Assembly: GCA_963565915.1 (NCBI GenBank)
Contig: OY751486.1
Coordinates: forward strand, 5,580,001 to 5,644,000
Source: Entoloma clypeatum
Lineage: Eukaryota > Basidiomycota > Agaricomycetes > Agaricales > Entolomataceae
Reading direction: 5' to 3'
DNA: 64,000 nucleotides
Shown here: in pieces, positions 317 through 48,422 of the stretch
Layout of the letters: each line of letters opens with the position of its first letter
Position numbering within the stretch: position 1 is the stretch's first letter
Notes under the pieces: generated by a model
What the model was told of the DNA's origin: nothing
Databases searched by the model: none
Seen by the model: the letters and a program-made list of their open reading frames with translations, nothing else
Program-made: the position numbers and the translations under genes

Positions 317-679
317 TATGGCTTGCTTGTTCGCCCTTGCTTACTCCAGCTCTGATGTCAACCATTGTGTCTGGCGTTTTTACGTACATTTCGTAAATAA
401 TGTACTTAGGTGGTTTCCCGTAACTGTTCTTACATGTTACTGGGTATTGGTTAGTTTTCTTGCTGTGTGTCCCTCGGGATAACGGTCTTCGCCTTCAAAG
501 ATCTTCGGACTTTGATGTGGGAGCGATCCGTTATCTCGGTTCACTCGGATCTCACCCGGACCGTTGGTCCGTGATGGGGATTCCCCATAGCCTTACCTTT
601 GCAGGGTCCTACTCGGGTCCTGTCTTGGCGAGCGCTATTGTGGCGTTTTCCTCTCACGACCTGTCAGGCGTGTGACGAA

Positions 680-823
680 GTGGACAATAGGCGGAGTCAG
701 CTGCCCAGAGAACAATAGTTCTATTGTTCTCTGAATGACTCAACCGATTGCCGTTTTCGGACCTGATGAGGCCTATAAAGGCCGAAATAGGATCCTGGAC
801 TTATCCCAAGTCCTATTGTCCAC
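680..823 (+). repeat. 12-bp inverted repeat enclosing hairpin and ribozyme, copy 1
   Basis: GTGGACAATAGG at 680-691 is the exact reverse complement of CCTATTGTCCAC at 812-823. The right arm straddles the predicted hammerhead cleavage site (817/818). Between the arms, 705-732 forms a hairpin with 13-bp arms and a TT loop. The arrangement is conserved in copy 2 (1363-1507). It would let the upstream strand compete with the ribozyme for its cleavage strand. Confidence 0.75.
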
Positions 824-830
824 ATCGGCA
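748..830 (+). ncRNA. Hammerhead ribozyme 1
   Basis: The full hammerhead core is present. CTGATGA (763-769) is followed by stem II GGCC/GGCC with loop TATAAA, then GAAA, then a long stem III (TAGGA/TCCTA, with inner CTT/AAG pairing possible). Next comes the cleavage triplet ATT (815-817), and stem I is GGAC/GTCC. Stem I extends beyond an internal loop through TGCCG/CGGCA. Stems II and III are closed by loops and stem I is open, so the topology is type I. Cleavage is predicted between 817 and 818. The AUU triplet satisfies the NUH rule but is less common than GUC. Activity is inferred from structure only. Confidence 0.85.
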
Positions 831-851
831 CACAGGCCCCTCAGTCGCACT

Positions 852-877
852 CCCCTAACCCCTAACCCCTAACCCCC
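852..877 (+). repeat. Telomere-like (CCCCTAA)n tract, 1
   Basis: CCCCTAACCCCTAACCCC and flanking bases form just over three units of the 7-mer CCCCTAA, read on the plus strand. The tract directly follows the 3' end of hammerhead element copy 1. Its complement is TTAGGGG, one G longer than the common TTAGGG telomere repeat. Confidence 0.8.
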
Positions 878-905
878 TTCCAAATCAATTCTTCTAGATA
901 ACCCC
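878..905 (+). repeat. Isolated 28-bp R1 tail
   Basis: Only the last 28 bp of R1, ending TTCTAGATAACCCC, is present here, directly after the telomere-like tract and before hammerhead element copy 2. It shows that the R1 terminus can be attached separately from the rest of R1. Confidence 0.85.
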
Positions 906-1362
906 CTGCGAGTCCGCCCTTTGATAAGGCGCTGCTGTAGTACTGTAAATACTGCGCTTTGGGGAGTAGTACACGACTCGTACTCTGTTTGGTAATTGTA
1001 GAGCGTTACGCGACGAAGGTGACCCCCTGGTCATCCAAGTCACGTGACCCTTAGGTATCTTTTCACATTCGCTGATCGCCGTGATCGTTGATCACTGGGT
1101 CTTAAGACCGGTGTTCTGGGAACATCACATGCGATTCGGTCCACCCGGACCTCACCGGACCTTCGGTCCGTGATGGGGATTCCCCATAGCCTTACCTCTG
1201 ATTCTTATCGGGTCATCGGTTGCACCCTGCTTGATCTGGAGAAGGATCAGGCGCTCCTTCTTGTCTAGAAAGGGGTGCTCCCTAGATCCTGAAGTCCGAT
1301 TTGGACACTGGTGAGCGCTGTGTGGCGTTTTTCTCCCACGGACGACAGTTCGTGTGAACGTG

Positions 1363-1507
1363 GTGGACAATAGGCGGAGTCAGTTGACCTGTGGAACAAT
1401 AGTTCTATTGTTCTTCAGATGACTCAACCGATTGCCGTATTCGGACCTGATGAGGCCTTTAAAGGCCGAAATAGGATCCTGGACTTTCCCCAAGTCCTAT
1501 TGTCCAC
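1363..1507 (+). repeat. 12-bp inverted repeat enclosing hairpin and ribozyme, copy 2
   Basis: GTGGACAATAGG at 1363-1374 pairs exactly with CCTATTGTCCAC at 1496-1507, which spans the second predicted cleavage site (1501/1502). The enclosed hairpin GAACAATAG-TT-CTATTGTTC is shorter than in copy 1, but both the hairpin and the flanking arms are retained although surrounding sequence differs. Confidence 0.75.
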
Positions 1508-1513
1508 TCGGCA
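1433..1513 (+). ncRNA. Hammerhead ribozyme 2
   Basis: The core matches ribozyme 1: CTGATGA (1447-1453), stem II GGCC/GGCC with loop TTTAAA, GAAA, stem III TAGGA/TCCTA, triplet ATT (1499-1501), and stem I GGAC/GTCC with outer TGCCG/CGGCA. Nearly all differences from copy 1 fall in loops: loop II TATAAA versus TTTAAA, loop III, and the stem I internal loop. That is the pattern expected if the fold is maintained. Cleavage is predicted between 1501 and 1502. Confidence 0.85.
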
Positions 1514-1563
1514 CAGGCCCCCCAGTCGCTTCCTTCCCTCCATCGTCTTTGGCGTTGGAAATA

Positions 1564-1586
1564 CTAACCCCTAACCCCTAACCCCC
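1564..1586 (+). repeat. Telomere-like (CCCCTAA)n tract, 2
   Basis: Three CTAACCCC-type units plus extra Cs directly follow the 3' end of hammerhead element copy 2, as in copy 1. The G-rich strand lies on minus, so the element's plus-strand RNA would end against the tract. Confidence 0.8.
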
Positions 1587-1999
1587 AGAAACACTATACA
1601 ACACCTTCGAACTTGCTAACTTTTTCATATTTGTACATGCTTGGTCATAATATTTCATTGTTTGGCCATCATAGACAATGTACACAAGTGCAAACAACCT
1701 TTCGCAGAATTACTGAGCACGGCATTCTACCTAAGAATGAGGCATCTGACAGAGATGTGCACACAATACAGGTGTGTAAGCATATAATAATTCGTCGGCG
1801 ACGAAACCATACAGACACCTGTGCGTGGGCAATAACATATTTGTCGCGAAATTGCACCCAGAACCCACCCACACGCGCGAAAATCATTCCCTCCAGACAA
1901 AACGGGAACCAGGGCAATAACCCCCTGCGTCCATCAATATAGGCACCCAAAACACGGTCGGATTGGTGATGGATGCAGCCATCTTGCTCATCGTCCATG
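1587..1999. other. Unassigned AT-richer stretch
   Basis: No conserved gene is recognised. Two overlapping ORFs of about 109 codons on opposite strands (1613-1942 and 1669-1998) have no recognisable domain. The first GTCGGCGAC-type dyad appears at about 1796, so this may be degenerate satellite mixed with unique DNA. Confidence 0.4.
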
Positions 2000-4900
2000 T
2001 GTGGCGCAGCTGTCTCACTTCTTCCTGCCGTTAAACAAAGTCAGATGGTGTGGGCGACTGTTGTGAGAGGTGTGGTAGTACAGCTTTCTCGCGTCGTCGC
2101 CGACGAAGTCTGGGAAAGTTGTCAGACTAGTGGTACAGCCGTCTCGTCCAGTCATGGTTGTTGTCCACTGCGAAGTGAATATGCATGTTGTATGTAAGAA
2201 TGTGTCGTCGTCGATAAAACGTAGAGACAGGCAGCCGTCGCAGCAGCATAAAAATGTCGTCGTTGTCGACATGTGAGTGAGCAACAATAAAATGTAGAAA
2301 TGACGACGACAACGACGACATGTGTAGAGCAGGGGCACTGGGGCAGCAAAGGGGTTAGGGGGGGGGGGGGGGGCGGGGGGGGTTACAGTGACATGTCTTC
2401 GTCGACGAGGTGGGGTGGCTCGTCCCCCAATGTGAAAATACGTCGACGACGTATGAGTGGACGAACTGCAGCAAACATAATCGGGTTATTCCACCAGTAG
2501 CACAAACAGTGAAGAGCAGGCGTTTGCCGTACAGGGTGGGGGTGTGGTACCGTGGTGTAGCCATCCAACGGTCGGACGTTTCGTGACAGGCATCAGCCGC
2601 CAAACAGGGCGTAGTAGGTATCAATGGGCGAGACAGCGAGGTGGTACGGACGGATGTGAGTAGTTGAGCGGAAGAAGGAGGTGAGAGGGCGAAGGGACGA
2701 CGTGAGCCGTCAAACGGGGCGTGGTAGGTCCCGATAGGTGACACAGGGAGGTGGCTGGGTGCCGCGCAGACGCAGGGGTCAACCCACTGCGTTGCGACCG
2801 CCAAATCCGACGCAGGGGTAAACCCCTTGCGTGGATGCTCTCGGGTCGGATGTGTCGATGGGGTGGAAGGGGTGAGTGCTGGTGTGGGTCATTAGCAGGC
2901 GTCAAGGGTGAGGGAACGTGGGGTGCTTACCTCGGCAGCGGACGGCGAAGGATGGGGGCATAGCCGTGCTGGCTATTAAACGGGGTACGCTGGAGGTCGG
3001 TGCTGGACGGTCATCAAACGGAGGGCAGAGCGTAGGTGTCGAAGCAGCTACATGGCGAGAGGCGGGCTGTAGCGATTAAACGGCGTGTGCCTGTTTAAGG
3101 TCACCATGGGCTTCATCAGGGCCGTGCCGCTGTGGTGTGTCGTGAGCGGGCGTCAATAGTGGGAAGCGGGGCATGCGTACTGAGTCTTGCTGGGCCTGGG
3201 ATGTTGGAGGCGAGGGACTGGGACTCATGGTCCAGCCGTTTCTTCCCTTCGTCAACGAAGTGAGGTGGTGAGCCTCGTGGCGTAGCTGAGCCGCCTCGTC
3301 TCCTCATCGACGACCTGATGATGTAGCCTCTCGTGCCTTGCGGCGTAAGCTGTCAGGCAGGGTGTGGTAGGCATCGCATTCCTCGTCTCGTATCGTCCAT
3401 CTCGTCTCCTCAGTGTCGAGGTGGAATGGTGGGTCCGTGCGCGCATCGTCTCGTCGCGGACAAGATGAGGTGGGTTGGTGGGGGTGATGGGTTTCGTGTA
3501 GCCGTCTCAGTTCTTCGTCGACGACGAGGTGAGGTGGCGGGTCCCATGGCGCAACCGTCCCATCCCTTCGTCGACGAAATGAGGTTGAGGGTCTCGTGGC
3601 GCAACCGTCTCATGTCTTCGTCGACGACGTGAGGTGGTGGGTCCCTTCTCCTCGTCGTCGACGAGGTGGTGGGTCCCTTCTCCTCGTCGTCGACGAGGTG
3701 TTGGTCTCGCCGTGCAGGTGTCTCGTCTCAGTAGACGAGGAGGAGGGGTGATGGGTCCAGCCATGGTCCCTTCGTCGACAAGGTGGAGGTCCCAGTCGAA
3801 TCTTCCTATTCGTGAAGGAATCGTCGTCGAGAAATGGAGACTTGCGAAAATCCCGGCATTTCGTCGTCGAAGGATGGTGTGGAGATGGCCGCCGATTGGA
3901 GTGGGAAATGGAAATGGCGTGGCGTGTGGTGGATGTGGGCGGAGTGGTGTAGAAACGGATATGTCGTCAGGAAAGGCAGAGCGGATGGGTGTGGAGGGGT
4001 GAATGGGCGAGTGGGTCATCGTCAACGGAAGGGGAGGTAGAACGACTATGGGTACGTGAGAGGGGGACGTTAGTGTACTGAATGTGGGGTTGAATGTGGG
4101 GTTGTACGCACAATTGTGGCGTCGTCGACGAAGCGACGAGGCAGGCAGAGTGGCCGCGCAGATAGAGTAGCGCCTGGAGAGAACGGAGCGTCGACCAAGC
4201 ATCCCGTCGTGGCTTGATGACCAGAGAGCGGGCGTCCAGAGGCAGATGACGACGGATCGATGTTTACTAGGGACTGTGGTGGATGTGGTGGTGGTACAGC
4301 CGTGGCGTCTCTCCCGACGCAGCCATGTCGCCCCTTCGTCGTGGACGTAGTGGCGAGTCTCGTGGTGTAGCCTTGCCATTGACCCCTCCGACGCACCTCC
4401 TTCTCTTCCCTTCTCACCTTCTAGCACCTCCAAGACTATTCTCTGTTGGGTGTCCCGGCGCATCCGTCCTGTTTCATCGTCGAAGGAGAGGGTGGAAGGC
4501 GTCTTGGCGCAACTGTCTCGTTTCGTGGTCGAAGGAGTGGCGGTGGGGCTCTCCTGGCAGCAATCGCATCTCGTTCCCTCGTCGAAGGAGTGGCATGATG
4601 GGCGCCCTGTGCGTCGTCCCCGTCCCTCGTCGACGGAGTATGACGGGAGGTGTCCTGATACAGTCGTCCCGTTCCCTCGTGGAAGAAGTGGGGTGAGTGG
4701 TCCTCGTCTCGTTCCCTCGCCGTAGAGTCGGATGGGAGCTGCCCTGGTGCGTCGTCTCGTTCCCTCGTCGAAGGAGTGGCACGGGCGGCCTCCTGGCGCA
4801 CGTGTCTCATTTTCTCGTTGGAGAAGTGGCGTGGAGGGTGTCCTCGTGCAGCCGTCTCGTTCCCTTGTTGAAGGAGCGAGGCAGGTGGTCTCCTAAGCAG

Positions 4901-12555: not shown

Positions 12556-12871
12556 GCCATCCCACACCATCTTCGTGCAGTTCCACCACCATTCTGTCCA
12601 CAATGAGTATTCAGTAGATACGAATTTTCTCTGCTCCTGTTAACAAGCACCCCAGTCTGTAACTCAGGTGCATTCCTTAGCCCATCTGTAGCCACACTCT
12701 AGTCATATCCTGCCACCCACCCTAGCTGTACCCTAGTCATATTCTGTCATCCACCCTAGCCATGCCCTAGTCCACACCCTAGTCATACCCTGCCACCCAC
12801 CCTAGCTGTACCCTAGTCAAAAAAATTTTGTACCCTACCCTAATTCCAAATCAATTCTTCTAGATAACCCC
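12556..12871 (+). repeat. R1 repeat, copy 2
   Basis: Same length as copy 1 (316 bp) with a few substitutions. It ends macro-unit A. After TTCTAGATAACCCC the sequence continues TAACCCAGTCC into macro-unit B. Confidence 0.95.
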
Positions 12872-13934
12872 TAACCCAGTCCTCACCACCATATCACAGT
12901 CTCTCTCGCCCGTCTACACCTACCATGTCCCGTTTTGACGGGCGCCCGCCCTTCACGCTAGGTGACGAGACAGCTGTCGACGAAGCGACAAGGCAGGACC
13001 AGGGGACCAAGGGGCGAGGACCACCTGACCCTCTGCCTCGACGAAGGGAGACGGCTGCATCACGACCACACCCCCCACCACCTCACCTGGTCGACAAAGG
13101 GGCGATACGGCTGCGCCACAGGAGAACTGCACCACCACCATACGACGAAGGGGCGACAGACGCCACGGCTGTACCGCCGCCACCACATCCACCTCTCCAC
13201 GTCGTCGACGAGGACATGGGTGCCACCTCACGACATGGCTGCGCCACCACACCTCTTGCCACCTCACGTCGTCGACGACGACACGAGACGCACCACGCGT
13301 TGTCAACCCCTCCATCAACAAGGCCACGAACGGCACCATTGCAGCTTCACCACCCCTCTTACCATTTCACGTCGTCGACGACGACACGAGACGACTGCAC
13401 CTCCCACGTCGTCGTTGAGGGCACGAACCGGCAGGAAACCCACCACCACTTCGTCGACGACGACGAGACGACACAGGTACCGCAGGAGACCTACGCAGTA
13501 ATGACGGGGTCAACCACTTCCCATCGTCGACGAGGGATGGCTGCGCCACGATACCCACCGTCTCACGTCGTGAACCCCTACCCGACATCGTCGACGAGGC
13601 GACACAGCTACGCCACAAGACCTTCTCCACGTCGCCGATGAAGGGGCGACACGGCTGCACGACCGTCGGCGACGAAGGTGCGAGAGACGCCACGGCTGTC
13701 CCACCACCCCATCAACCACTTCAACCACTTTACTTTGTCTTCAACGGCACGAGACGGCTGCACTACGACACCCCACCACCCGACGTCCACGACGATACGA
13801 TACAGCTACAACCCCCCTCCCCACCTCATCGACAACATGACGCGCGACGGCTATACCACCGGCACCACCGTTCTCACAACACATTGCATTGCTCGTCCTC
13901 TATCCCCCCCCCCCCCCCCCCCCCCCCTCGCGGG

Positions 13935-16818: not shown

Positions 16819-17134
16819 GCCATCCCACACCATCTTCGTGCAGTTCCACCACCATTCTGTCCACAATGAGTATTCAGTAGATACGAATTTTCTCTGCTCC
16901 TGTTAACAAGCACCCCAGTCTGTAACTCAGGTGCATTCTTTAGCCCATCTGTAGCCACACCCTAGTCATACCCTGCCACCCACCCTAGCTGTACCCTAGT
17001 CATATTCTGTCATCCACCCTAGCCATGCCCTAGTCCACACCCTAGTCATACCCTGCCACCCACCCTAGCTGTACCCTAGTCAAAAAAGTTTTGTACCCTA
17101 CCCTAATTCCAAATCAATTCTTCTAGATAACCCC
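16819..17134 (+). repeat. R1 repeat, copy 3
   Basis: The third 316-bp R1 ends the satellite domain. After the terminal TTCTAGATAACCCC the sequence changes at once to a gypsy gag remnant (minus strand). R1 therefore joins a different neighbour at each of its three full copies. Confidence 0.95.
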
Positions 17135-22403: not shown

Positions 22404-22835
22404 AGTGAAAATGTATCTAAAAGGGGAATTGTCCAAGTCGATGTGAGTCATAGCGCTGATAGGGGGGACACATGTCCCAGGGTCCTCGGAGTTAAGTGAA
22501 ATGGGGTTTGATAAAGATCGAGGGTTGAGGGGTCATGTGAAGGCGCATAGGAAGAGGGTGAAAAAGTGTAACAGTGATAAGGTTGACTGCAGGGGGGGCG
22601 ACAACAGGGTGGGAGACTGCAGGAGGGGCGACAATGGGGTGTGTGACAGGGTGGGAGGCAGCAGTGATGGTGACAGCAGCAGTGGTGGTAGAGGTGGTGG
22701 CAGTGACAGTGGCTGGGGGCGACGGCAAGGGTGAGTTATTCCAGCCACTAACCAGCGAATGCCCAATGGCAAAGGAAGCGGCGTAGGGGTTGTCTGGCAA
22801 ATATTGGAGTTATCGATGACACTAGCACTGTCTAC
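22404..22835. other. No gene seen; G-rich trinucleotide-like stretch
   Basis: From 22560 to 22740 the sequence is a degenerate GGGGCGACAACAGGGTGGGA / GGTGGCAGTGACAG repeat. Short ORFs on both strands follow from its composition. The last five bases, TCTAC (22831-22835), are the left target duplication of El1. Confidence 0.6.
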
Positions 22836-23205
22836 TGTTACGGACTAACGACTACGGACGTATGCGCTTACTTTTTCGCTTTTACTCATCGGCCCCCGCT
22901 TACACATATCGTATTATACTTTATTTCCTTTAGTATACTTCGCTCCCGCGCTGACTCGCTTTCCGCAGCTGTCTGACTCATTCCGCAGTCAGCTTACTCA
23001 TTAGTGCATAGCCTTCCGCAGTCGCCTTACTCATGCGCACTGCCTTCCGCAGTTACTGACTCATTCGCTACCGCTCATAGTCAGTACTATATAAACCTCA
23101 TGTACCATAGCTACATTCCTTAGATTTAGCAATCACATTGCTCTTCGCCTTTCCATCTTCCTGCATACTCTGCCCGAACCTTGGAACGGTTTGTTACGCA
23201 TAACA
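22836..23205 (+). repeat. El1 5' LTR
   Basis: Starts TGTTACGGACTAACGACTAC and ends GTTACGCATAACA. U3 contains direct repeats of CCTTCCGCAGT/CTTACTCAT. TATATAAA is at 23088-23095, and the presumed RNA start AGATTTAGCAA is at 23122. Confidence 0.95.
23088..23132 (+). promoter_or_regulatory. El1 core promoter and transcript 5' end
   Basis: TATATAAA (23088-23095) lies 34 nt upstream of AGATTTAGCAA (23122-23132). This 11-mer is exactly complementary to TTGCTAAATCT just after the LTR, which fixes the likely transcript start as in Tf1-type elements. Confidence 0.65.
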
Positions 23206-23207
23206 AG

Positions 23208-23218
23208 TTGCTAAATCT
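23208..23218 (+). promoter_or_regulatory. El1 primer-binding site (self-priming)
   Basis: TTGCTAAATCT begins 2 nt after the LTR and does not start with the TGG expected for a tRNA primer. It is the exact complement of 23122-23132 at the presumed RNA 5' end. Tf1/sushi elements prime minus-strand DNA from a folded-back 11-nt RNA 5' end, and this fits that layout. Confidence 0.7.
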
Positions 23219-23994
23219 CGTTAGGTTCGCCCAGAGCGAAGAGAGCAACTACCAGACGAGTCAAGACGTCGCGCTTCTTTGAAGACTTCACCAGTAACCC
23301 ATTCAGCACGCCAGAAGCCCGACAGGAGGAGCTAAGTCCTCGAGACAGTATCGATTTTACACTCATCCAGCAGTACATCGAATCGGAGATCCGTCGCATC
23401 CTACAGCAGGTGCTTGACGAAGAACTAGACAACGACGAGCATCGCCCCCACGGCGAGATAGCAGAGAGCATCCATCTTGCTCGGCAACACCAGATCGCGC
23501 GTTACAACGCCCGACAGAACGAACTCGAAAGCTTTCGCGTTCAAGAAGGACCTCAGACAGGTCGGATCACAGAGATCAGAGAGTTTATCGGTGTCCAGAC
23601 AACCGTTATCAGAAGATTGATTAGGACGCTCACATCGAGACGTCCCAGAGCCGCATCACCACGTCTTACTCGAAGCAGCAGATCTACGCCCACTTCACCA
23701 CCGACGAGCAACAGACCGAGTACAACCGTTGGGCACGAAACGAGAGACTTGACCCCTTCTCGCGACCAACAGATGCGCAGGAACAGAGATTCCTTAGAGA
23801 TCTACAGAGAAAATACCCCGAACGTTTTGCCACCGATTCCGCCGACGAGTCCCCTGACGAATTTACTTTTGACTCCGCGCAGTCAGATACCGAACAGACG
23901 CCTAGAACAGGGACTGATTTTCAACCCCTACCTGTATCCCGAACCCCATCTTCATCCCAACAATCCGACACCTCTCCTACTCCGCAGGTTCTAG
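23215..23994 (+). other. El1 leader with an ATG-less open frame, overlapping an open extension of gag
   Basis: A frame without an early ATG is open from 23215 to TAG 23992-23994. It reads as a hydrophilic, partly coiled-coil protein in its first half (for example DSIDFTLIQQYIESEIRRIL). The gag frame itself is open upstream of its ATG back to TAG 23622-23624 and reads as a coherent acidic, polar sequence. El2 keeps both. In the overlap, El1/El2 differences look more conservative in the gag frame than in the other. A spliced or frameshifted longer Gag leader is possible; the feature may also be just a long 5' leader. Confidence 0.45.
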
Positions 23995-23996
23995 AT

Positions 23997-24863
23997 ATGG
24001 CAGAAGCACCAACAGTACAAACAATGGATACATCCAAGATCATCAAAGATCCTGGGATGTTCAAAGACAGACACACCTTCGACGAGTGGTGGAAAGCCAC
24101 CAAATTATACATCAGGTTCCAGAAGGGCCTGTCCGACGATCAGAAAATTCTTGCGGTGTTATCCCGCATGATGGAAGGGTCCGGTAAACACTGGGCCAGC
24201 AACAAGTTAGACGACCTTGCCACCGATGGTGAGAACATCACCTCGTTAGGGTTCTCAGACGACATCGCTACGCGATTCTCTATTGCCAACAAGTCGGCAG
24301 CGGCCAAGGCGAGACTCGAAGTCCTGAAACAGGAGAAACGCACCATCGACAAATTCTTGGACGAATTCGAAGAGCTCTTGAAGCTGTCAAACCTTGGCGA
24401 AGAAACTGGGAAATATATCCTGGAAAAGAACGTCAACCGCAGAATTTCTGAACAAGTGGCTAGCGATGGCAAGACGTACACTGATTATGCAAAGGAGATC
24501 CGAAACAAGGGACGACAGATGGAGGGACATGCATTAGTCATCCGAGGGGGTGGCGACACACGCACCGGATCGGGCACCACTTATGGTGGTCAAGGCAAAG
24601 CCATGGAGATCGACAAAGCAGGAGTAGCCCGTTGCTACAACTGTCAGCGCTTTGGTCACCTTGCCAAAGACTGCAAAGCCCCAAAGAAGAAAGATGGTCA
24701 TAAGTGTTTCAACTGCGACCAAGAAGGACATATCGCGCGCAACTGCCGCAAGCCGAAGAAGAACTCTGGAAAGATTAGGAAGGTGTCTGATGGAGATACC
24801 GATGATGATGAAACCATCACCATAGAGACCGATGAGAAGGATTTTCCCGAAGGGTCCGATTAA
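23997..24863 (+). CDS. El1 Gag
   Basis: Retrotransposon capsid/nucleocapsid protein of 288 residues from ATG 23997. The N-terminal two thirds form a gag capsid-like domain ([17 protein letters not shown] near residue 25). Two consecutive CCHC zinc knuckles lie near residues 208 and 231: [14 protein letters not shown] and [14 protein letters not shown]. These would bind element RNA during packaging. The C-terminus is Lys- then Asp/Glu-rich. The stop at 24861-24863 overlaps the open pol frame by 28 nt. The start is the first ATG of the frame, but the frame is open for about 124 codons further upstream, so a longer form cannot be excluded. Confidence 0.9.
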   Translation: MAEAPTVQTMDTSKIIKDPGMFKDRHTFDEWWKATKLYIRFQKGLSDDQKILAVLSRMMEGSGKHWASNKLDDLATDGENITSLGFSDDIATRFSIANKSAAAKARLEVLKQEKRTIDKFLDEFEELLKLSNLGEETGKYILEKNVNRRISEQVASDGKTYTDYAKEIRNKGRQMEGHALVIRGGGDTRTGSGTTYGGQGKAMEIDKAGVARCYNCQRFGHLAKDCKAPKKKDGHKCFNCDQEGHIARNCRKPKKNSGKIRKVSDGDTDDDETITIETDEKDFPEGSD

Positions 24864-27800
24864 ACGACGCTAAGTCGCGACCCTTATCCATTAAACGAAC
24901 TCGCTTGCCTGGTGCAGCTACAGACAATATAACTTATGTTATCCCTGCAAAGCGAGCCGTTGCGTCAACTAAGATTGTCAAGGGAGATAAACCTCCGAAA
25001 CGACGAGAGATCAAGCTGCAAGCTCAGATCAAAACACGACGAGGACCAAAGGCCATTCGACCCGAGGTTGATAGCGGATGTGAACGCACATGTATCCATC
25101 CCAGAATAGTACGCGAACAGAACCTTCCCACACGGGGAATAAAGCCCATATCAATCCTAAATGCGGATGGATCGCCGAACCGACAACAGAAAGCAGAAAA
25201 ACTTGCCGAAGTCAAGCTGGACTTAGGAACACACCAGGAAACCATGGAAGCAATGGTATTGGACATTGGGAGAACGGACATGCTTTTGGGACATGACTGG
25301 TTGGTGCACCACAACCCCACAATCAATTGGACGACCGGCGCTGTAACATTCAACCGGTGCCCATCAACATGTCAAACCAAGCACTCGGATTTCAGGGTTA
25401 ACCTTAATGGTCGCAAACATCGGGTTCGCATGGTGGAAGTACGAGACAAGGACGCGCCCAAGAAATCGGATCAGAAATGGAAGCCCGGAGACCCCATATT
25501 GGAAGCAGTTACTCCCACACCACCTCCCACAACCAAACGACCCTCATACGTTGAACGTTTTGCCCATCTCTTTGAAAAAGAAAACTTTGACAAGATCCCA
25601 AAAGAAAGAGAATGGGACCACGGCATCGAACTTACACCGGACGCACCAAAGGAGCTAGGAGGAAACACGTATCCTATGACCCAAAAGGAGCAAGAAGAAC
25701 TGGACGAATTCATCGATGAAGGCCTGGCAACTGGAAAGATCCGACCGTCCAAATCCCCTTATGCATCACCCTGCTTCTTCATTAACAAGAAAGACGGTTC
25801 CAAACAATTGGTACAGGATTATCGCACGGTCAATAAATTCACGGTTAAGGACAAATTCCCACTCCCACGCATCAACGACCTCTTGGATGTATTGAAGGAT
25901 GCAGTCTACTTCAATAAAATGGACATCATGTGGGGATACAATAACGTGCGGATCAAGAAGGGTGACGAATGGAAAGCCGCCTTCCTGACCAGCCGAGGAT
26001 TGTTTGAACCATTGGTCATGTTTTTCGGTCTCTGCAACTCCCCGGGAACGTTCTCTCGGATGATGGCCAGCCTATTCAGGGATCAGATCCGTCGGCGCAT
26101 CTGTGTGATTTACATGGATGACATAGTGGTTGTTGGTAAAACCAAGGAAGAACTCGCCCGGAACACCGAAGAGATCTTGCAGATTCTGTCAGACAATGAC
26201 CTGTTCCTAAAGGAGAAGAAGTGTCTTTGGGAAGTAATGAAATGCCCCATATTGGGATATGTCGTTGGAGAAGGACGTGTTGAGATGGAAACTGAAAAGG
26301 TGGACACAATCCGGAACTGGCGAGTACCCACATCAAAAAAGGAAGTCCAGAGGTTCCTGGGATTTGCCAATTTTTATCGACGCTTTATTGAAGGATACTC
26401 AAACATCGCAAAGCCACTCACAACACTTACGGGAAATACAGCATTCACGTGGGGACCAGCGGCGCAAGAAGCATTTGAAGGTCTCATACGGGCAATCACA
26501 ACGGCACCAGTCTTGGCATTGCCCAAACCGGACGGACAGTTCAGGGTCGAAACCGATGCATCGGGTTATGCGATTGGAGCAGTACTTTCACAGAAACAAG
26601 ACGACAAGTGGCATCCTATCGTGTTCTTGTCGCGGACCATGTCCGCGGCCGAACAGAATTACGAGATATACGACAAGGAACTCTTGGCTGTCATGGAAGC
26701 ATTGAAGGACTGGCGACATTATCTACTTGAAGCCAAGGAACGTTTCGAGATCTTAACCGATCACAAAAACCTGGAGTATTTCCGGCGTCCTCAGGACCTA
26801 AACCAACGACAGAGGCGCTGGAAGATGAAGTTACAAGACTATGACTTCGAACTGCGACATGTACCTGGGAAGACAAACGCAAAAGCAGACATCCTGTCAC
26901 GTTTACCCTGGTATGAGACGGAACTCGAGCCGCAGGACAGCGACCAAATGCTCAAGGAGGGGCTATTCTTGAAACGATTGGAATCAGAAGATGTGATACA
27001 AATGGAGATGTTCACGGAGGAACAATTCTTTGAAGGGGGTGAAACATCTGATTCCATCAAAATTGGAAACATCACAACCATCGAAAACCCATGGATCGCA
27101 CGCATCAAAGCCTCGAAGCGTATGGAGACAGAAGTAGCCCAGGGTCTGAAGAAGAATCCTCACTGGTACCAGCAGGAAAATGGCATCACCTACGCAGGAG
27201 AACGAGTCTATGTTCCACCAGACCCACAATTGCGCCAAGAACTGATGTTTGAAGCGCACGATGCACCAGTGGCAGGACATCCAGGACAATATCGAACACA
27301 TGAACTCCTCACTCGCACCTACTGGTGGCCCACCATCCTACATGACGTAAAGAAGTATGTGAAAGGTTGTGACACCTGTCAACATAACAAGATCAGCCGC
27401 CAAAGGAGACACGCCCCTCTACACCCTAACGCCGCGCCAAGTCAACCATGGGAAGACATAGGAATTGACGTTGTGGGACCGATACCAGAATCTGATGGGA
27501 AGAATGCAATTCTGGTCATCACGGACAGACATTCAAAGATGCTTCATCTCATCCCGACAACCGTGGAACTATCGGCTGAAGGATTAGCCAAGATCTATCG
27601 GGACCAGATATGGAAGCTTCATGGGATCCCTAAGAAGATCATTAGCGACAGAGGACCACAGTTCGCCGCGAAGTTCATGGAGATACTTTGCCGCATGTTG
27701 GGAATCAAGAGAAACCTGTCCACTGCGTACCATCCACAAACTGATGGACAAGCCGAACGATCACATCAGGAAACCGAGGTGTTCTTACGAAACTTTGTCA

Positions 27801-28513
27801 ACCATCTACAAGATGATTGGGCGGAATGGATCGCAATCGCAGAATTCCAGTACAATGACAAAGAACATCAAGCGACAAAGTACACACCATTCTATCTCAA
27901 CTACGGTCTGCATCCTTGGAAGGGAGAACTTGTGTTGGAAGACACCAATCCAGCGGCAAACGACTTCTTGAAAAAACTCAAACAGGCACGAGAAGAAGCC
28001 AACGCAGCACTGAAACAGGCCCAGGATCAGATGAAGAAGACAGTTGACACACGACGAAGCCCGTCTTGGAATTACCGCATCGGAGACAAGGTGTGGCTGG
28101 AAGGGACTAACATCAGGACTGATCGTCCCTCAAAGAAACTTGACGCCCTCCGACATGGACCGTTCAAAGTCCTAGAGAAGAAAGGAGCTAGCGCATACCG
28201 TCTTGATCTTCCCAAAGCCTGGAAGATGATCCACCCTGTGTTCAACGAGACCCTGTTATCGCCATACAAAACCCCGAAGTATGCCATTCAGAAAAAGAAG
28301 CCAGCCCCTGATCCAATCATCATCGAAGGACGAGAAGAATACCATGTCTCCACGATCCTGGACTCTCGGAAATTCCGCGGAAAGATCCAGTACCTTGTCC
28401 AATGGGAAGGGTATGGCCCAGAAGAGACCACGTGGGAACCTCGGACTAATGTTCAGAACGCTCAAGACTTGATCCGAGATTTTCATCGGCAAAATCCATC
28501 GCGTCCACAATAA
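24836..28513 (+). CDS. El1 Pol: protease, RT, RNase H, integrase, chromodomain
   Basis: The pol frame opens at 24836, 28 nt before the gag stop and in the -1 frame, and has no early ATG, so expression as a Gag-Pol fusion is likely. Domains in order: aspartic protease (DSGCERTC), RT ([34 protein letters not shown], catalytic YMDDIVV), RNase H ([33 protein letters not shown]), integrase zinc region (H...H...CDTC), the DDE core (GIDVVGP, SDRGPQF, and the Glu within [14 protein letters not shown]) and a C-terminal chromodomain ([17 protein letters not shown]). Relative to El2, the RT-core SKRLVQDYR has become SKQLVQDYR (CGA to CAA at 25805), which may weaken activity. Confidence 0.95.
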   Translation, partial: EGFSRRVRLNDAKSRPLSIKRTRLPGAATDNITYVIPAKRAVASTKIVKGDKPPKRREIKLQAQIKTRRGPKAIRPEVDSGCERTCIHPRIVREQNLPTRGIKPISILNADGSPNRQQKAEKLAEVKLDLGTHQETMEAMVLDIGRTDMLLGHDWLVHHNPTINWTTGAVTFNRCPSTCQTKHSDFRVNLNGRKHRVRMVEVRDKDAPKKSDQKWKPGDPILEAVTPTPPPTTKRPSYVERFAHLFEKENFDKIPKEREWDHGIELTPDAPKELGGNTYPMTQKEQEELDEFIDEGLATGKIRPSKSPYASPCFFINKKDGSKQLVQDYRTVNKFTVKDKFPLPRINDLLDVLKDAVYFNKMDIMWGYNNVRIKKGDEWKAAFLTSRGLFEPLVMFFGLCNSPGTFSRMMASLFRDQIRRRICVIYMDDIVVVGKTKEELARNTEEILQILSDNDLFLKEKKCLWEVMKCPILGYVVGEGRVEMETEKVDTIRNWRVPTSKKEVQRFLGFANFYRRFIEGYSNIAKPLTTLTGNTAFTWGPAAQEAFEGLIRAITTAPVLALPKPDGQFRVETDASGYAIGAVLSQKQDDKWHPIVFLSRTMSAAEQNYEIYDKELLAVMEALKDWRHYLLEAKERFEILTDHKNLEYFRRPQDLNQRQRRWKMKLQDYDFELRHVPGKTNAKADILSRLPWYETELEPQDSDQMLKEGLFLKRLESEDVIQMEMFTEEQFFEGGETSDSIKIGNITTIENPWIARIKASKRMETEVAQGLKKNPHWYQQENGITYAGERVYVPPDPQLRQELMFEAHDAPVAGHPGQYRTHELLTRTYWWPTILHDVKKYVKGCDTCQHNKISRQRRHAPLHPNAAPSQPWEDIGIDVVGPIPESDGKNAILVITDRHSKMLHLIPTTVELSAEGLAKIYRDQIWKLHGIPKKIISDRGPQFAAKFMEILCRMLGIKRNLSTAYHPQTDGQAERSHQETEVFLRNFVNHLQDDWAEWIAIAEFQYNDKEHQATKYTPFYLNYGLHPWKGELVLEDTNPAANDFLKKLKQAREEANAALKQAQDQMKKTVDTRRSPSWNYRIGDKVWLEGTNIRTDRPSKKLDALRHGPFKVLEKKGASAYRLDLPKAWKMIHPVFNETLLSPYKTPKYAIQKKKPAPDPIIIEGREEYHVSTILDSRKFRGKIQYLVQWEGYGPEETTWEPRTNVQNAQDLIRDFHRQNPSRPQ

Positions 28514-28631
28514 AAAGAACAAACTTTGAGAACCATTTTCCACATCGACTTCTGTCACATCGAGTTCCCCGCTCCAACTCTTCTCGCCCAACACGCCGTT
28601 CTTCTTATACCTTTCAAACATCATTTCTGCC

Positions 28632-29000
28632 ATGTCCAACATCACCGCCACCTCCACCGATGCTTCCGATATCAATCCCACCATCACCACCCTCATCGGT
28701 GAAGCGCTCTCCATGCGCGACCAGATCCATGCGCTCGAAACCTCCGTCGCCGACATCCTCCACCGGCAGATGCATATCCGCCTTCATACCCTCTCTGATT
28801 TACCAACCGCCCCCACCGCTGAGGAGAAGCTCATCCTCAAAAACTATACCAACACCCTTGCTGTCGAAAATCGACGCCTTCGCCTCGCCGTTCGAGGTTT
28901 AGAGTTTGCCACGGCGGTAAACGATGAACTGATAAAGGATTGGGGTAACCGGGTTGACCCTGCCTGGGCTGATCCAAATGGCAACAATGGATGGGAGTAG
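28632..29000 (+). CDS. El1 ORF3: coiled-coil protein of unknown function
   Basis: A 122-residue ORF from ATG 28632 lies between pol and the 3' LTR, in the position of env or accessory genes. It is predicted helical with heptad-like stretches (MRDQIHALETSVADILHRQM, EEKLILKNYTNTLAVENRRL) and a tryptophan-containing C-terminus. No signal peptide, membrane segment or zinc motif is seen, so it is not an envelope protein. El2 has the same ORF (47649-48017). By my reading the two differ by 11 silent and 2 replacement changes, which indicates protein-level constraint. I do not recognise the family. Confidence 0.75.
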   Translation: MSNITATSTDASDINPTITTLIGEALSMRDQIHALETSVADILHRQMHIRLHTLSDLPTAPTAEEKLILKNYTNTLAVENRRLRLAVRGLEFATAVNDELIKDWGNRVDPAWADPNGNNGWE

Positions 29001-29024
29001 GTAGTCTGTGAGGACACAGACCTT

Positions 29025-29037
29025 GAGGAGGGGAACA
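29025..29037 (+). promoter_or_regulatory. El1 polypurine tract
   Basis: GAGGAGGGGAACA directly precedes the 3' LTR. It is the expected plus-strand primer position and is identical in El2. Confidence 0.75.
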
Positions 29038-29407
29038 TGTTACGGACTAACGACTACGGACGTATGCGCTTACTTTTTCGCTTTTACTCATCGGCCCCCA
29101 CTTACACATATCGTATTATACTTTATTTCCTTTAGTATACTTCGCTCCCGCGCTGACTCGCTTTCCGCAGCTGTCTGACTCATTCCGCAGTCAGCTTACT
29201 CATTAGTGCATAGCCTTCCGTAGTCGCCTTACTCATGCGCACTGCCTTCTGCAGTTACTGACTCATTCGCTACCGCTCATAGTCAGTACTATATAAACCT
29301 CATGTACCATAGCTACATTCCTTAGATTTAGCAATCACATTGCTCTTCGCCTTTCCATCTTCCTGCATACTCTGCCCGAACCTTGGAACGGTTTGTTACG
29401 CATAACA
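29038..29407 (+). repeat. El1 3' LTR
   Basis: 370 bp, followed by the target duplication TCTAC (29408-29412). Three substitutions against the 5' LTR were seen (CCCCCGC to CCCCCAC, CCGCAG to CCGTAG, TTCCGC to TTCTGC), all in the G:C to A:T direction. Confidence 0.95.
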
Positions 29408-41854: not shown

Positions 41855-42222
41855 TGTTACGGACTAACGACTACGGACGTATATGCTTACTTTTTCACTT
41901 TTACTCATCGGCCCCCGCTTACACATATCGTATTATACTTTATTTCCTTTAGTATACTTCGCTCCCGCGCTGACTCGCTTTCCGCAGCTGTCTGACTCAT
42001 TCCGCAGTCGTCTTACTCAGACGCACTGCCTTCCGCAGTTATCTTACTCAGATACACTGCCTTGCGCAGCACTGACTCATATGCTATCGCCTATAGTCAG
42101 TACCTATATAAACCCTTTGTACTATAGCTAGATTCCTTAGATTTAGCAATCACATTGCTCTTCGCCTTTCCATCTTCCTGCATACTCTGCCCGAACCTTG
42201 GAACGGTTTGTTACGCATAACA
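41855..42222 (+). repeat. El2 5' LTR
   Basis: TG...CA ends, with TATATAAA upstream of the presumed RNA start AGATTTAGCAA (42139-42149). The complement TTGCTAAATCT is at 42225-42235, 2 nt after the LTR, as in El1. Confidence 0.95.
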
Positions 42223-42224
42223 AG

Positions 42225-42235
42225 TTGCTAAATCT
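42225..42235 (+). promoter_or_regulatory. El2 primer-binding site (self-priming)
   Basis: TTGCTAAATCT is exactly complementary to 42139-42149 inside the LTR. It has the same position and sequence as in El1. Confidence 0.7.
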
Positions 42236-43011
42236 CGTTAGGTTCGCCCAGAGCGAAGAGAGCAACTACCAGACGAGTCAAGACGTCGCGCTTCTTTGAA
42301 GACTTCACCAGTAACCCATTCAGCACGCCAGAAGCCCGACAGGAGGAGCTAAGTCCTCGAGACAGTATCGATTTTACGCTTATCCAGCAGTACATCGAAT
42401 CGGAGATCCGTCGCATCCTACAGCAGGTGCTTGACGAAGAACTAGACAACGACGAGCATCGCCCCCACGGCGAGATAGCAGAGAGCATCCATCTTGCTCG
42501 GCAACACCAGATCGCGCGTTACAACGCCCGACAGAACGAACTCGAAAGCTTTCGCGTTCAAGAAGGACCTCAGACAGGTCGGATCACAGAGATCAGAGAG
42601 TTTATCGGTGTCCAGACAACCGTTATCAGAAGATTGATTAGGACGCTCACATCGAGACGTCCCAGAGCCACATCATCACGTCCTACTCGAAGCAGCAGAT
42701 CTACGCCCACTTCACCATCGAAGAACAACAAACCGAGTACAACCGTTGGGCACGAAACGAGAGACTTGACCCCTTCTCGCGACCAACAGACGCGCAGGAA
42801 CAGAGATTCCTTAGAGATCTACAGAGGAAATACCCCGAACGTTTTGCCACCGATTCCGCCGACGAGTCCCCTGACGAATTTACTTTTGACTCCGCGCAGT
42901 CAGATACCGAACAGACGCCTAGAACAGGGACTGATTTTCAACCCCTACCTATATCCCGAACCCCATCTTCATCCCAACAATCCGACACCTCTCCTACTCC
43001 GCAGGTTCTAG
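42232..43011 (+). other. El2 leader open frame
   Basis: Counterpart of the El1 leader frame, open from 42232 to TAG 43009-43011 without an early ATG. The gag frame is again open upstream to TAG 42639-42641. Differences from El1 cluster in the Ser/Thr/Pro-rich middle. Confidence 0.45.
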
Positions 43012-43013
43012 AC

Positions 43014-43883
43014 ATGGCAGAAGCACCGACAGTACAAACAATGGATACATCCAAGATCATCAAAGATCCTGGGATGTTCAAAGACAGACACACCTTCGAC
43101 GAGTGGTGGAAAGCCACCAAATTATACATCAGGTTCCAGAAGGGACTGTCCGACGATCAGAAGATTCTTGCGGTGTTATCCCGCATGATGGAAGGGTCCG
43201 GTAAACACTGGGCCAGCAACAAATTAGACGACCTTGCCACCGATGGCGAGAACATCACCTGGTTAGGATTCTCAGATGACATCGCTACGCGATTCTCTAT
43301 TGCCAACAAGTCGGCAGCGGCCAAGGCGAAACTCGAAGTCCTGAAACAGGAGAAACGCACCATCGACGAATTCTTGGACGAATTCGAAGAGATCTTGAAG
43401 CTGTCAAACCTTGGCGAAGAAACTGGGAAATACATCCTGGAAAAGAACGTCAACCGCAAAATTTCTGAACAAGTGGCTAGCGATGGCAAGACGTACACTG
43501 ATTACGCAAAGGAGATCCGAAACAAGGGACGACAGATGGAGGGACATGCATTAGTCATCCGAGGGGGTGGCGACACACGCACCGGATCGGGTACCACTTA
43601 TGGTGGTCAAGGCAAAGCCATGGAGATCGACAAAGCAGGAGTAGCCCGTTGCTACAACTGTCAGCGCTTTGGTCACCTTGCCAAAGACTGCAAAGCCCCA
43701 AAGAAGAAAGATGGTCGTAAGTGTTTCAACTGCGACCAAGAAGGACATATTGCGCGCAACTGCCGCAAGCCGAAGAAGAACTCTGGAAAGATTAGGAAGG
43801 TGTCTGATGGAGATACCGATGATGACGATGAAACCATCACCATAGAGACCGATGAGAAGGATTTTCCCGAAGGGTCCGATTAA
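43014..43883 (+). CDS. El2 Gag
   Basis: 289 residues, colinear with El1 Gag, with one extra Asp in the acidic tail. Both CCHC knuckles are intact ([28 protein letters not shown]). Role and context are as for El1 Gag. The stop at 43881-43883 overlaps the pol frame, which opens at 43856. Confidence 0.92.
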
Positions 43884-46800
43884 ACGACGCTAAGTCGCGA
43901 CCCTTATCCATTAAACGAACTCGCTTGCCTGGTGCAGTTACAGACAATATAACTTATGTTATCCCTGCAAAGCGAGCCGTTGCGTCAACTAAGATTGTCA
44001 AGGGAGATAAACCTCCGAAACGACGAGAGATCAAGCTGCAAGCTCAGATCAAAACACGACGAGGACCAAAGGCCATTCGACCCGAGGTCGATAGCGGATG
44101 TGAACGCACATGTATCCATCCCAGAATAGTACGTGAACAGAACCTTCCCACACGTGGAATAAAGCCCATATCAATCCTAAATGCGGATGGATCACCGAAC
44201 CGACAACAGAAAGCAGAAAAACTTGCCGAAGTCAAGCTGGACTTGGGAACACACCAGGAAACCATGGAGGCAATGGTATTGGACATTGGGAGAACGGATA
44301 TGCTTTTGGGACATGATTGGTTGGTGCACCACAACCCTACAATCAATTGGACGACCGGCGCCGTAACATTCAACCGATGCCCGTCAACGTGTCAAACCAA
44401 ACACTCGGATTTCAGGGTTAACCTTAATGGTCGCAAACATCGGGTTCGCATGGTGGAAATACGAGACAAGGACGCACCCAAGAAATCAGATCAGAAATGG
44501 AAGCCCGGAGACCCCATATTGGAAGCAGTTACTCCCACACCACCTCCCACAACCAAACGACCCTCATATGTTGAACGTTTTGCCCATCTTTTTGAAAAAG
44601 AAAACTTTGACAAGATCCCAAAGGAAAGGGAATGGGACCACGGCATCGAACTTACACCGGACGCACCAAAGGAGCTAGGGGGAAACACGTACCCTATGAC
44701 CCAAAAGGAGCAAGAAGAACTGGACGAATTCATCGACGAAGGCCTGGCAACCGGAAAGATCCGACCGTCCAAATCACCTTATGCATCACCCTGCTTCTTC
44801 ATTAACAAGAAAGACGGTTCCAAACGATTGGTACAGGACTATCGCACGGTTAACAAATTCACGGTTAAGGACAAATTCCCACTCCCACGCATCAACGACC
44901 TCTTGGATGTATTGAAGGACGCAGTCTACTTCAACAAAATGGACATCATGTGGGGATACAATAATGTGCGGATCAAAAAGGGTGACGAATGGAAAGCCGC
45001 CTTCTTGACCAGCCGGGGATTGTTTGAACCATTGGTCATGTTTTTCGGTCTCTGCAATTCCCCGGGAACGTTCTCTCGGATGATGGCCAGCCTATTCAGG
45101 GATCAGATCCGTCGGCGCATCTGTGTGATTTACATGGATGACATAGTGGTTATTGGTAAAACCAAGGAAGAACTTGCCCGGAACACCGAAGAGATCTTGC
45201 AGATCCTGTCGGACAATGACTTGTTCCTAAAGGAGAAGAAGTGTCTTTGGGAAGTAACGAAATGCCCCATATTGGGATATGTCGTGGGTGAAGGACGTGT
45301 CGAGATGGAAACTGAAAAGGTGGACACAATCCGGAACTGGCGAGTACCCACATCAAAAAAGGAAGTCCAGAGATTCCTGGGATTTGCCAATTTTTATCGA
45401 CGCTTCATTGAAGGATACTCAAACATCGCAAAGCCACTCACGACACTTACGGGAAATACAGCATTCACATGGGGACCAGCGGCGCAAGAAGCATTTGAAA
45501 GTCTCATACGGGCAATCACGACAGCACCAGTCTTGGCATTGCCCAAACCGGACGGACAGTTCAGGGTTGAAACCGATGCATCGGGTTATGCAATTGGAGC
45601 GGTACTCTCACAGAAACAAGACGACAAGTGGCATCCTATCGCGTTCTTGTCGCGGACCATGTCCGCGGCCGAACAGAATTACGAGATCTATGACAAGGAA
45701 CTCTTGGCAGTCATGGAAGCACTGAAGGACTGGCGACATTATCTACTTGAAGCCAAGGAACGTTTCGAGATCTTAACCGATCACAAAAACCTGGAGTATT
45801 TCCGGCGTCCTCAGGACCTAAACCAACGACAGAGGCGCTGGAAGATGAAGCTACAAGACTATGACTTCGAATTGCGACATGTACCTGGGAAGACAAACGC
45901 GAAAGCAGACATCCTGTCACGTTTACCCTGGTATGAGACGGAACTCGAGCCGCAGGACAGCGACCAAATGCTCAAGGAGGGGCTATTTTTGAAACGATTG
46001 GAATCAGAAGATGTGATACAAATGGAGATGTTCACGGAGGAACAATTCTTTGAAGGGGGTGAAACATCTGATTCCATCAAAATCGGAAACATCACAACCA
46101 TCGAAAACCCATGGATCGTACGCATCAAGGCCTCGAATCGCATGGAAACAGAAGTAGCCCAGGGTCTGAAGAAGAATCCTCACTGGTACCAGCAGGAAAA
46201 TGGCATCACCTACGCAGGAGAACGAGTCTATGTTCCACCAGACCCACAATTGCGCCAAGAACTGATGTTTGAAGCGCACGACGCACCAGTGGCAGGACAT
46301 CCAGGACAGTATCGAACGCATGAACTTCTCACTCGCACCTACTGGTGGCCCACCATCCTACATGACGTAAAGAAGTATGTGAAAGGTTGTGACACCTGTC
46401 AACGCAACAAGATCAGCCGCCAAAGGAGACACGCCCCTCTGCACCCTAACGCCGCGCCAAGTCAACCATGGGAAGATATAGGGATTGACGTCGTAGGACC
46501 GATACCAGAATCTGATGGGAAGAACGCAATTCTGGTCATCACGGACAGACATTCAAAGATGCTTCATCTCATCCCGACAACCGTGGAACTATCGGCTGAA
46601 GGATTAGCCAAGATCTATCGGGACCAGATATGGAAACTTCATGGAATTCCCAAGAAAATCATCAGCGATAGGGGACCGCAGTTCGCCGCGAAGTTTATGG
46701 AGATACTTTGCCGCATGTTAGGGATCAAAAGAAATCTGTCCACTGCGTACCATCCACAGACTGATGGACAGGCCGAACGATCGCATCAGGAAACCGAGGT

Positions 46801-47533
46801 GTTCTTACGAAACTTTGTCAACCATCTACAAGATGATTGGGCGGAATGGATCGCAATCGCAGAATTCCAGTACAATGACAAAGAACATCAAGCGACAAAG
46901 TACACACCATTCTATCTCAACTACGGTCTGCATCCTTGGAAGGGAGAACTTGTGTTGGAAGACACCAATCCGGCAGCAAACGACTTCTTGAAAAAACTCA
47001 AACAGGCACGAGAAGAAGCCAACGCAGCACTAAAACAGGCACAGGATCAGATGAAGAAGACAGTTGACACACGACGAAGCCCGTCTCGGGATTACCGCAT
47101 CGGAGACAAGGTGTGGCTGGAAGGGACTAACATCAGGACTGATCGTCCCTCAAAGAAACTTGACGCCCTCCGACACGGACCGTTCAAAGTCCTAGAGAAG
47201 AAAGGAGCTAGCGCATACCGTCTTGATCTTCCCAAAACCTGGAAAATGATCCACCCTGTGTTCAACGAAACCCTGTTATCGCCATACGAAACCCCGAAGT
47301 ATGCCATTCAGAAAAAGAAGCCAGCCCCTGATCCGATCATCGTCGAAGGACGAGAAGAATACCATGTCTCCACGATCCTGGACTCTCGAAAATTCCGCGG
47401 AAAGATCCAGTACCTCGTCCAATGGGAAGGGTATGGCCCAGAAGAGAACACGTGGGAACCTCGGACTAATGTTCAGAACGCTCAAGACTTGATCCGAGAC
47501 TTTCATCGGCAAAATCCATCGCGTCCACGATAA
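43856..47533 (+). CDS. El2 Pol: protease, RT, RNase H, integrase, chromodomain
   Basis: An intact polyprotein in the -1 frame relative to gag, open from 43856 to TAA 47531-47533. It keeps the protease DSG, the RT core with SKRLVQDYR and [10 protein letters not shown], RNase H, the integrase zinc region ending CDTCQRNK, the DDE residues and a C-terminal chromodomain ([17 protein letters not shown]). Chromodomains of chromoviruses bind histone marks and guide integration. It looks competent by sequence. Where El1 and El2 differ at conserved positions, El2 carries the expected residue. Confidence 0.95.
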
Positions 47534-47648
47534 AAGAATAAACTTTGAGCCATTTTCCACATCGACTTCTGTCACATCGAGTTCCCCGCTCCAACTCTTC
47601 TCGCCCAACACGCCGTTCTTCTTATACCTTTCAAACATCATTTCTGCC

Positions 47649-48017: not shown

Positions 48018-48054
48018 GTAGTCTGTGAGGACACAGACCTTGAGGAGGGGAACA

Positions 48055-48422
48055 TGTTACGGACTAACGACTACGGACGTATATGCTTACTTTTTCACTT
48101 TTACTCATCGGCCCCCGCTTACACATATCGTATTATACTTTATTTCCTTTAGTATACTTCGCTCCCGCGCTGACTCGCTTTCCGCAGCTGTCTGACTCAT
48201 TCCGCAGTCGTCTTACTCAGACGCACTGCCTTCCGCAGTTATCTTACTCAGATACACTGCCTTGCGCAGCACTGACTCATATGCTATCGCCTATAGTCAG
48301 TACCTATATAAACCCTTTGTACTATAGCTAGATTCCTTAGATTTAGCAATCACATTGCTCTTCGCCTTTCCATCTTCCTGCATACTCTGCCCGAACCTTG
48401 GAACGGTTTGTTACGCATAACA
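48055..48422 (+). repeat. El2 3' LTR
   Basis: Identical by eye to the 5' LTR. It is preceded by the GAGGAGGGGAACA polypurine tract and followed by target duplication CTTCC. Confidence 0.95.

Follow-up and report, generated by a model that had tools for sequence, protein, structure and literature searches.

What are two closely similar hammerhead ribozymes doing side by side in a fungal genome, and does the distance between them define an RNA of its own? They lie at the start of a 64,000-nt stretch of the Entoloma clypeatum genome (C2:5580001-5644000, here called the window; the genome is assembled as 60.08 Mb in 20 contigs). To judge from the sequence, each hammerhead is very probably the 3'-terminal module of a broken copy of a Penelope-like element that attaches to telomeres and apparently lacks an endonuclease.

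Two hammerheads near a chromosome end

A 200-N scaffold gap (C2:5578141-5578340), with a telomere, (CCCCTAA)n, on its right side, lies 1.66 kb before the window, which thus begins near an end of an assembled piece; an earlier note, made from the letters alone, had called the region subtelomere-like, which this setting bears out. The same repeat is carried by many contig ends (among 100 matches listed of 181). Four loci with 200-N gaps were inspected: within the contigs, the gap adjoins telomeric repeats at L028 (3141-3340, the gap next to the window), L047 (4721-4920) and L027 (6618-6817), where chromosome ends appear to have been joined in the assembly, and the gap at L032 is without a telomere. 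Further into the window, a gypsy-type LTR element (41855-48422) that has a 1225-aa frame and LTRs of 368 nt, identical to each other, is a recent insertion, and a related copy, 96.4% identical to it, occupies 22835-29407. Another repeat is present in three copies (1-316, 12556-12873 and 16819-17134; 98.7-100% identical, ending in TTCTAGATAACCCC); at locus L030 the end of this repeat passes directly into (CCCCTAA)n, and it is possibly a second telomere-linked element.

Both ribozymes run through TGCCG, GGAC, CTGATGA, GGCC-loop-GGCC, GAAA, helix III, ATT/GTCC (the slash marks a cut or junction) and CGGCA, and so have the type I core, with CUGANGA and GAAA boxes, three stems and an NUH triplet at the cut. 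The letters of both copies agree with the two complete motifs described in the earlier note, predicted cut positions 817/818 and 1501/1502 included (Table 1). The canonical fold holds as well: folded alone, each ribozyme has the hammerhead as its minimum-energy structure in RNAfold (-30.1 kcal/mol for copy A, -29.0 kcal/mol for copy B), and a generic descriptor (4-bp stem I, CTGANGA, stem II of at least 3 bp, GAA, helix III of at least 5 bp with A15.1-U16.1, and H17) matches twice in the window, exactly at these sites, and not once in 100 dinucleotide-shuffled windows. A pattern for the central part likewise has two matches in the window against 0.02 expected. By eye, an internal loop in stem I could serve a loop-loop tertiary contact. 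The significant covariance-model match proposed in the note as a check did not come from Rfam, which gave no match over the whole window at gathering score, a curated threshold rather than a biochemical criterion; in e-value mode (600-1600) the models fell short with RF02275 at 746-831 (22 bits against a gathering score of 52, E 0.011) and RF00008 at 1426-1477 (20.1 bits against 48.5, E 0.23). The likely reason for these sub-threshold scores is the long interrupted helix III. A covariance model made from the present family scores 115.5 and 113 bits at the two sites, by construction, and at most 10.4 bits in the rest of the window.

The two ribozymes are identical at 79 of 83 positions, while most of the flanking parts, conserved blocks excepted, are only 10-51% identical, the lowest values falling where copy A is truncated. 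That both ribozymes are active now, or were so recently, is plausible. The proposal that they mark RNA ends 684 nt apart is not supported as a statement about a unit: these are two separate 5'-truncated insertions, each from its own subfamily, and what separates them is telomeric repeats and a 28-nt foreign piece. Copy A opens at the junction AACCCCT/ATGGCTTG (L028:5319, window 318) and has 536 nt in common with copies at several other loci (at least 93% identity); the relatives of copy B extend further upstream than 908. Elsewhere in the genome, ribozymes are spaced by 4820 nt, 780 nt and irregular values. Reading the 684-nt spacing as that of a retrozyme or satellite was not retained as the main explanation, as the copies come from different subfamilies and were truncated separately. 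A block with TGGGGATTCCCCATAGCCTT, found in both copies, is kept in every subfamily terminal repeat (pLTR) aligned; Rfam in e-value mode has no match to it at 1136-1200.

Table 1. Parts of the two insertions at the start of the window
Feature	Position	Strand	Basis
Copy A, 5'-truncated pLTR, subfamily A2, ending in CCCCTAA repeats	318..877	+	5' junction and shared sequence
Conserved pLTR block in copy A, TGGGGATTCCCCA core	536..601	+	subfamily alignment
arm1 of copy A, complementary 12/12 to 812-823 across the cut	680..691	+	inverted repeat
P0 of copy A: stem 694-699/736-741, inner hairpin 707-732	694..741	+	folding; inner-hairpin covariation, 27 modules
Hammerhead ribozyme A, type I, predicted cut 817/818	748..830	+	sequence, RNAfold, descriptor
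Post-cut tail of copy A, ending in C-strand telomeric template 852-877	818..877	+	sequence
28-nt piece between the copies, matching the 3' end of the repeat at 1-316	878..905	+	match
Copy B, 5'-truncated pLTR, subfamily B2, ending in CCCCTAA repeats	908..1587	+	related copies share from 908
Conserved block in copy B, counterpart of 536-601	1136..1200	+	subfamily alignment
arm1 of copy B, complementary 12/12 to 1496-1507	1363..1374	+	complementarity
P0 inner hairpin of copy B	1389..1418	+	folding, covariation
Hammerhead ribozyme B, type I, predicted cut 1501/1502	1432..1513	+	sequence, RNAfold, descriptor
Post-cut tail of copy B, predicted hairpin, telomeric repeats 1564-1587 at end	1502..1587	+	sequence

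The parent element and its telomeric junctions

A full-length copy of the element consists of a pLTR (~780 nt, with the ribozyme), an ORF, a 3'UTR and a second pLTR; the unit measures 4821 nt in subfamily A (L009) and 4756 nt in subfamily B1 (L013), each with one long sense-strand ORF. P0001, a 1191-aa ORF lying between two same-strand pLTRs, carries PKIHK..RPI, DVVAFYP, YIDD and other motifs that we take to be those of a Penelope-type reverse transcriptase (RT). It has 296 protein relatives at E ≤0.001 among 7988 scored candidates; the best 120 of the 296 are 48-61% identical to it, with Lentinula edodes and Armillaria ostoyae named among them. Pfam at E 0.1 recognizes no domain in P0001, RT included, and finds RVT_1 in two relatives, P0009 and, below cut-off, P0118. 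A structure model of P0001 (25-sequence alignment; pLDDT 66.1, pTM 0.48) is of moderate quality, and a Foldseek search with it against the PDB places telomerase subunits at ranks 1-10 with low TM-scores (0.20-0.24 by query); this ranking and the RVT_1 domain of the relatives are in keeping with the telomerase-like RT of an endonuclease-deficient Penelope-like element. No GIY-YIG domain is matched by Pfam in P0001 or included in the domains precomputed for the 120 relatives listed, which is weak evidence because Pfam finds no domain in P0001, not even its RT; the element apparently lacks the endonuclease. Searched with P0001, the genome gives 39 matches, seven of them full-length at 100% and without stops; these seven frames, with the conservation of the ribozyme relative to its flanks, point to an element that was recently active. 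Searches of the viral_contigs set for the RT and the ribozyme, and of the genome_contigs set for the RT, found no relatives. The pLTR begins with CCCCTAACCTAACCCTAACCGGTTAACGTTAGGGG on the minus strand of L009 (reverse complement, about 3690-3740); this stretch has telomere-like repeats and can fold on itself, and it would supply cDNA with a telomere-like 3' end.

The exact ribozyme core occurs 121 times in the genome (66 forward, 55 reverse; reversed control 0). Of the 100 cores listed, 76 are no more than 50 kb away from a contig end, and every one of these is oriented so that its transcript carries CCCCUAA; the other 24 are internal, several but not all of them beside scaffold gaps, and count against the main explanation. 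The 44 loci used, outside which 17 of the 121 exact cores fall, contain 119 ribozyme matches, of which 103 are full-length and represent 18 distinct sequences. CTGATGA and ATT/GTCC are kept in all 103, and the GAAA box is altered in two of the 18 distinct sequences. Within 120 nt past the cut, a telomere-type motif follows in 99 of the 103 (against 39 of 2000 random stretches), and in 92 of these 99 it lies 62-68 nt past the cut. On the sense strand, the element ends in the order P0 hairpin, hammerhead, tail and CCCCUAA repeats. With such an end, the C-rich RNA would pair with a chromosome's G-rich 3' overhang, which the RT would extend, and the new end would be capped again with telomeric repeats; the folded hammerhead would cut some 65 nt before the telomeric template, separating the units of tandem transcripts.

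Could the short copies instead be non-autonomous elements of a retrozyme-like kind, propagated as small RNA circles one pLTR long? The presence of exact 780-nt pLTR doublets and the finding that the ORF leader lies downstream of only 8 of the 103 full ribozymes speak for this, but the window copies, like many others, have lost their 5' parts to varying extents, as truncation of the coding element explains, and the 684-nt spacing separates two subfamilies; such an origin is very improbable.

The 5' ends of the copies argue for attachment to telomeres. Starts were mapped for 128 copies, 13 of them at locus edges, and by rule 68 of the remaining 115 follow telomeric repeats. Two tail-only copies start with T/GTCCAC straight after the telomere (C2:299 and C13:12426), and four further copies start within 5 nt of the cut. 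By rule, the interval -4..+5 contains five of the 20 telomere-capped 5' ends that lie within -150..+75 of the cut, which is not significant (scan p 0.11). If two ends are placed by eye, L012:4058 at -4 instead of -15, because the BLAST match had continued into telomeric letters, and L046:4784, newly included, at -13, the count becomes 6 of 22 (scan p 0.023-0.024), and an interval of fixed width, the width having been chosen afterwards, gives p 0.0002. The T/GTCC of the two tail-only copies may be microhomology, because an element T is preferred after CCCC at the junctions. Each junction was read individually, since pattern searches also matched the reversed controls and did no better than these (6 versus 13 and 7 versus 11). 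As a footprint of cleaved RNA rather than of microhomology, the cluster of 5' ends is suggestive at best. At L032:1254-1454, a 200-N gap ends exactly at a tail copy beginning with TGTCCAC, that is, at the ribozyme cut site; as it follows a scaffold gap, this start was omitted from the cluster. For 3' ends at the cut site, which a 5' cleavage product copied onto a telomere would leave, the pattern used had no matches genome-wide.

The conserved module and the strand opposite the cut

Alignment of five subfamily pairs (A/B1, A/B2, B1/B2, A2/B2 and A/A2) sets the terminal module apart from its surroundings: identity is 14-48% at -160..-139 from the cut, 92-100% in arm1 (-138..-127), 75-96% in the hairpin stretch, 95-100% in the ribozyme and 38-69% after it; this last range leaves out a sixth pair, A/A', whose first tail parts are nearly identical. 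The conserved module starts at the first letter of arm1. These comparisons bear on whether the ribozymes are inert relics that resemble each other through recent amplification or gene conversion, as might be thought from the three sequences that account for 88 of the 103 full copies and from the many copies of the same subfamily that are 98-100% identical throughout. Between B1 and B2, though, the ribozyme is identical at 83 of 83 positions while parts outside the conserved module are 8-69% identical (exchange of modules between subfamilies is possible), and P0 has 11 double-changed cells that keep pairing, a number reached by none of 500 shuffles that leave the relatedness of the copies in. 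This covariation comes from 27 aligned modules out of 30 distinct ones, found with a pattern demanding an arm1-like start; L012, L031 and L054, with expanded hairpins, were left out. Other counts for P0 are less telling, since 69 of 500 shuffles also reach three pairs with double changes, and 452 of 500 reach the observed count of pair types. The hammerhead stems show two double-changed cells (a number that 23 of 500 shuffles also attain), few because the stems hardly vary, 14 of 19 pairs never doing so. We regard inert relics as very unlikely.

Arm1, 138 nt upstream of the cut, is a strand complementary to the 12 nt across the cut site. The earlier note, sound on the ribozymes, had missed these strands (680-691 and 1363-1374), the difference in subfamily and the parent element. 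The complementarity is conserved: of 102 usable full copies, 94 have an arm1 with no more than one mismatch, and in the other eight none was found at its place, telomeric or foreign sequence beginning there in several. Subfamilies A2 and B2 have a perfect GTGGAC in arm1; A (L009) and B1 (L013), which have intact coding copies, have GTGAAC, with one mismatch to the cut strand. At position 4 of the helix, 11 of 27 modules have an A.C mismatch, and no covariation is seen between arm1 and the cut strand in the 27, which neither supports nor refutes the helix.

When the whole module is folded with RNAfold, which covers neither the tertiary contacts of hammerheads nor folding during transcription, an inactive fold is preferred to one with the hammerhead forced in copy A (-64.5 versus -57.8 kcal/mol), copy B (-62.5 versus -51.7), L009 (-61.3 versus -59.5) and L013 (-63.4 versus -57.6), and this predicted disfavouring of the ribozyme counts against the main explanation. 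In all 27 aligned modules the arm1 helix has a probability above 0.8 and stem I one below 0.1; with arm1 removed, stem I exceeds 0.5 in 20 of the 27. The controls are mixed. With arm1 alone permuted, which by itself often weakens the ribozyme in RNAfold too, the native value is reached in 0 of 200 cases for copy A, 0 of 200 for copy B, 3 of 200 for L013 and 42 of 200 for L009, the worst result being that of the young subfamily A; with the whole 68-70 nt upstream shuffled, it is reached in 2.5% (A), 0% (B), 44.5% (L009) and 12.5% (L013).

The preference for a ribozyme-free fold also favours the idea that the hammerhead serves as a structural handle for RT binding or for display of the telomeric template, cleavage being incidental. 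Arkhipova and Yushenova propose that the fold exposes the telomeric stretch and that cleavage is auxiliary (PMC6431247), and for a Penelope element of Anolis, core mutants with unchanged insertion in vitro and no reads ending at the cut are described (PMC11167929). A mere handle would presumably not need CTGATGA and ATT/GTCC, which all 103 full copies keep, and we hold this idea to be possible, if on the doubtful side. Whichever part cleavage plays, the 3'-terminal module of a telomere-attached element is the reading retained here, and within it arm1 may be modelled as a switch or a splint. Arm1 (GTGRACAATAGG) would pair with CCUAUU/GUCCAC across the cut and lock the hammerhead until it is displaced; after cuts at two pLTRs, it would provide a 12-bp splint joining the 2',3'-cyclic-phosphate and 5'-OH ends, whose ligation would give a circle bearing the telomere template, and cut RNAs reaching telomeres would leave tail-only insertions starting at the cut site. 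This scheme of lock, splint and cut RNAs at telomeres is, as a whole, unlikely; if it were true, the tail-only insertions at the cut site would be a trace, left in the genome, of cleavage inside cells.

Relation to known telomere-attached elements

The kind of element is already known: Penelope-like, attached to telomeres, apparently endonuclease-lacking and with a 3' hammerhead. The genome that carries it here has (TTAGGGG)n ends. Fungal endonuclease-deficient Penelope-like elements go by the name of Coprina, and fungal Penelope hammerheads were reportedly found by Cervera and de la Pena in 2014 to be stable as monomers. Endonuclease-deficient Penelope elements, those of fungi included, prime at chromosome termini and have telomeric repeats on their truncated 5' ends (PMC3846280), and Penelope elements of Agaricus bisporus are linked to telomeres (PMC7473861). 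The present element resembles Athena of rotifers and its fungal and other relatives, as described in PMC3846280, in its telomerase-like RT, the lack of a detected endonuclease, its polarity at contig ends and its capped 5' ends; a 3' hammerhead with a closed helix III, P0 and arm1 may set it apart from Athena and Coprina.

Terminons of bdelloid rotifers likewise have a 3' hammerhead with C-strand (reverse-complement) telomeric repeats immediately after it, telomeric 5' truncation and tandem arrays (PMC6431247). Those elements reach 40 kb and carry accessory ORFs, in contrast to the two units measured here, which are neither giant nor equipped with accessory ORFs. The architecture matches that of published telomere-attached, endonuclease-deficient Penelope elements and of Terminons. 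Penelope and Terminon hammerheads are characterized as minimal, without helix III or loop contacts (PMC7761336), whereas helix III is present here. In the Penelope/Poseidon element PAc of Anolis, too, the pLTRs have a hammerhead close to where the ORF starts; PAc differs in having a GIY-YIG endonuclease and AT-rich targets (PMC11167929). Retrozymes share the non-coding repeats with hammerheads (PMC7761336); unlike them, the present copies are telomere-directed and share a genome with their coding parent element.

A complementary arm was not found in the partly covered literature searched (PMC11167929, PMC6155905, PMC6431247, PMC7473861, PMC3411680, PMC7761336, PMC3088659 and PMC3846280), and the arm1 strand opposite the cut is possibly a new feature, one that may lift the case above routine. 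Many identical ribozymes, seven identical intact RT frames, readable telomere junctions and a conserved strand opposite the cut come together in one genome, which makes it possible to test what the ribozyme contributes to telomere attachment.
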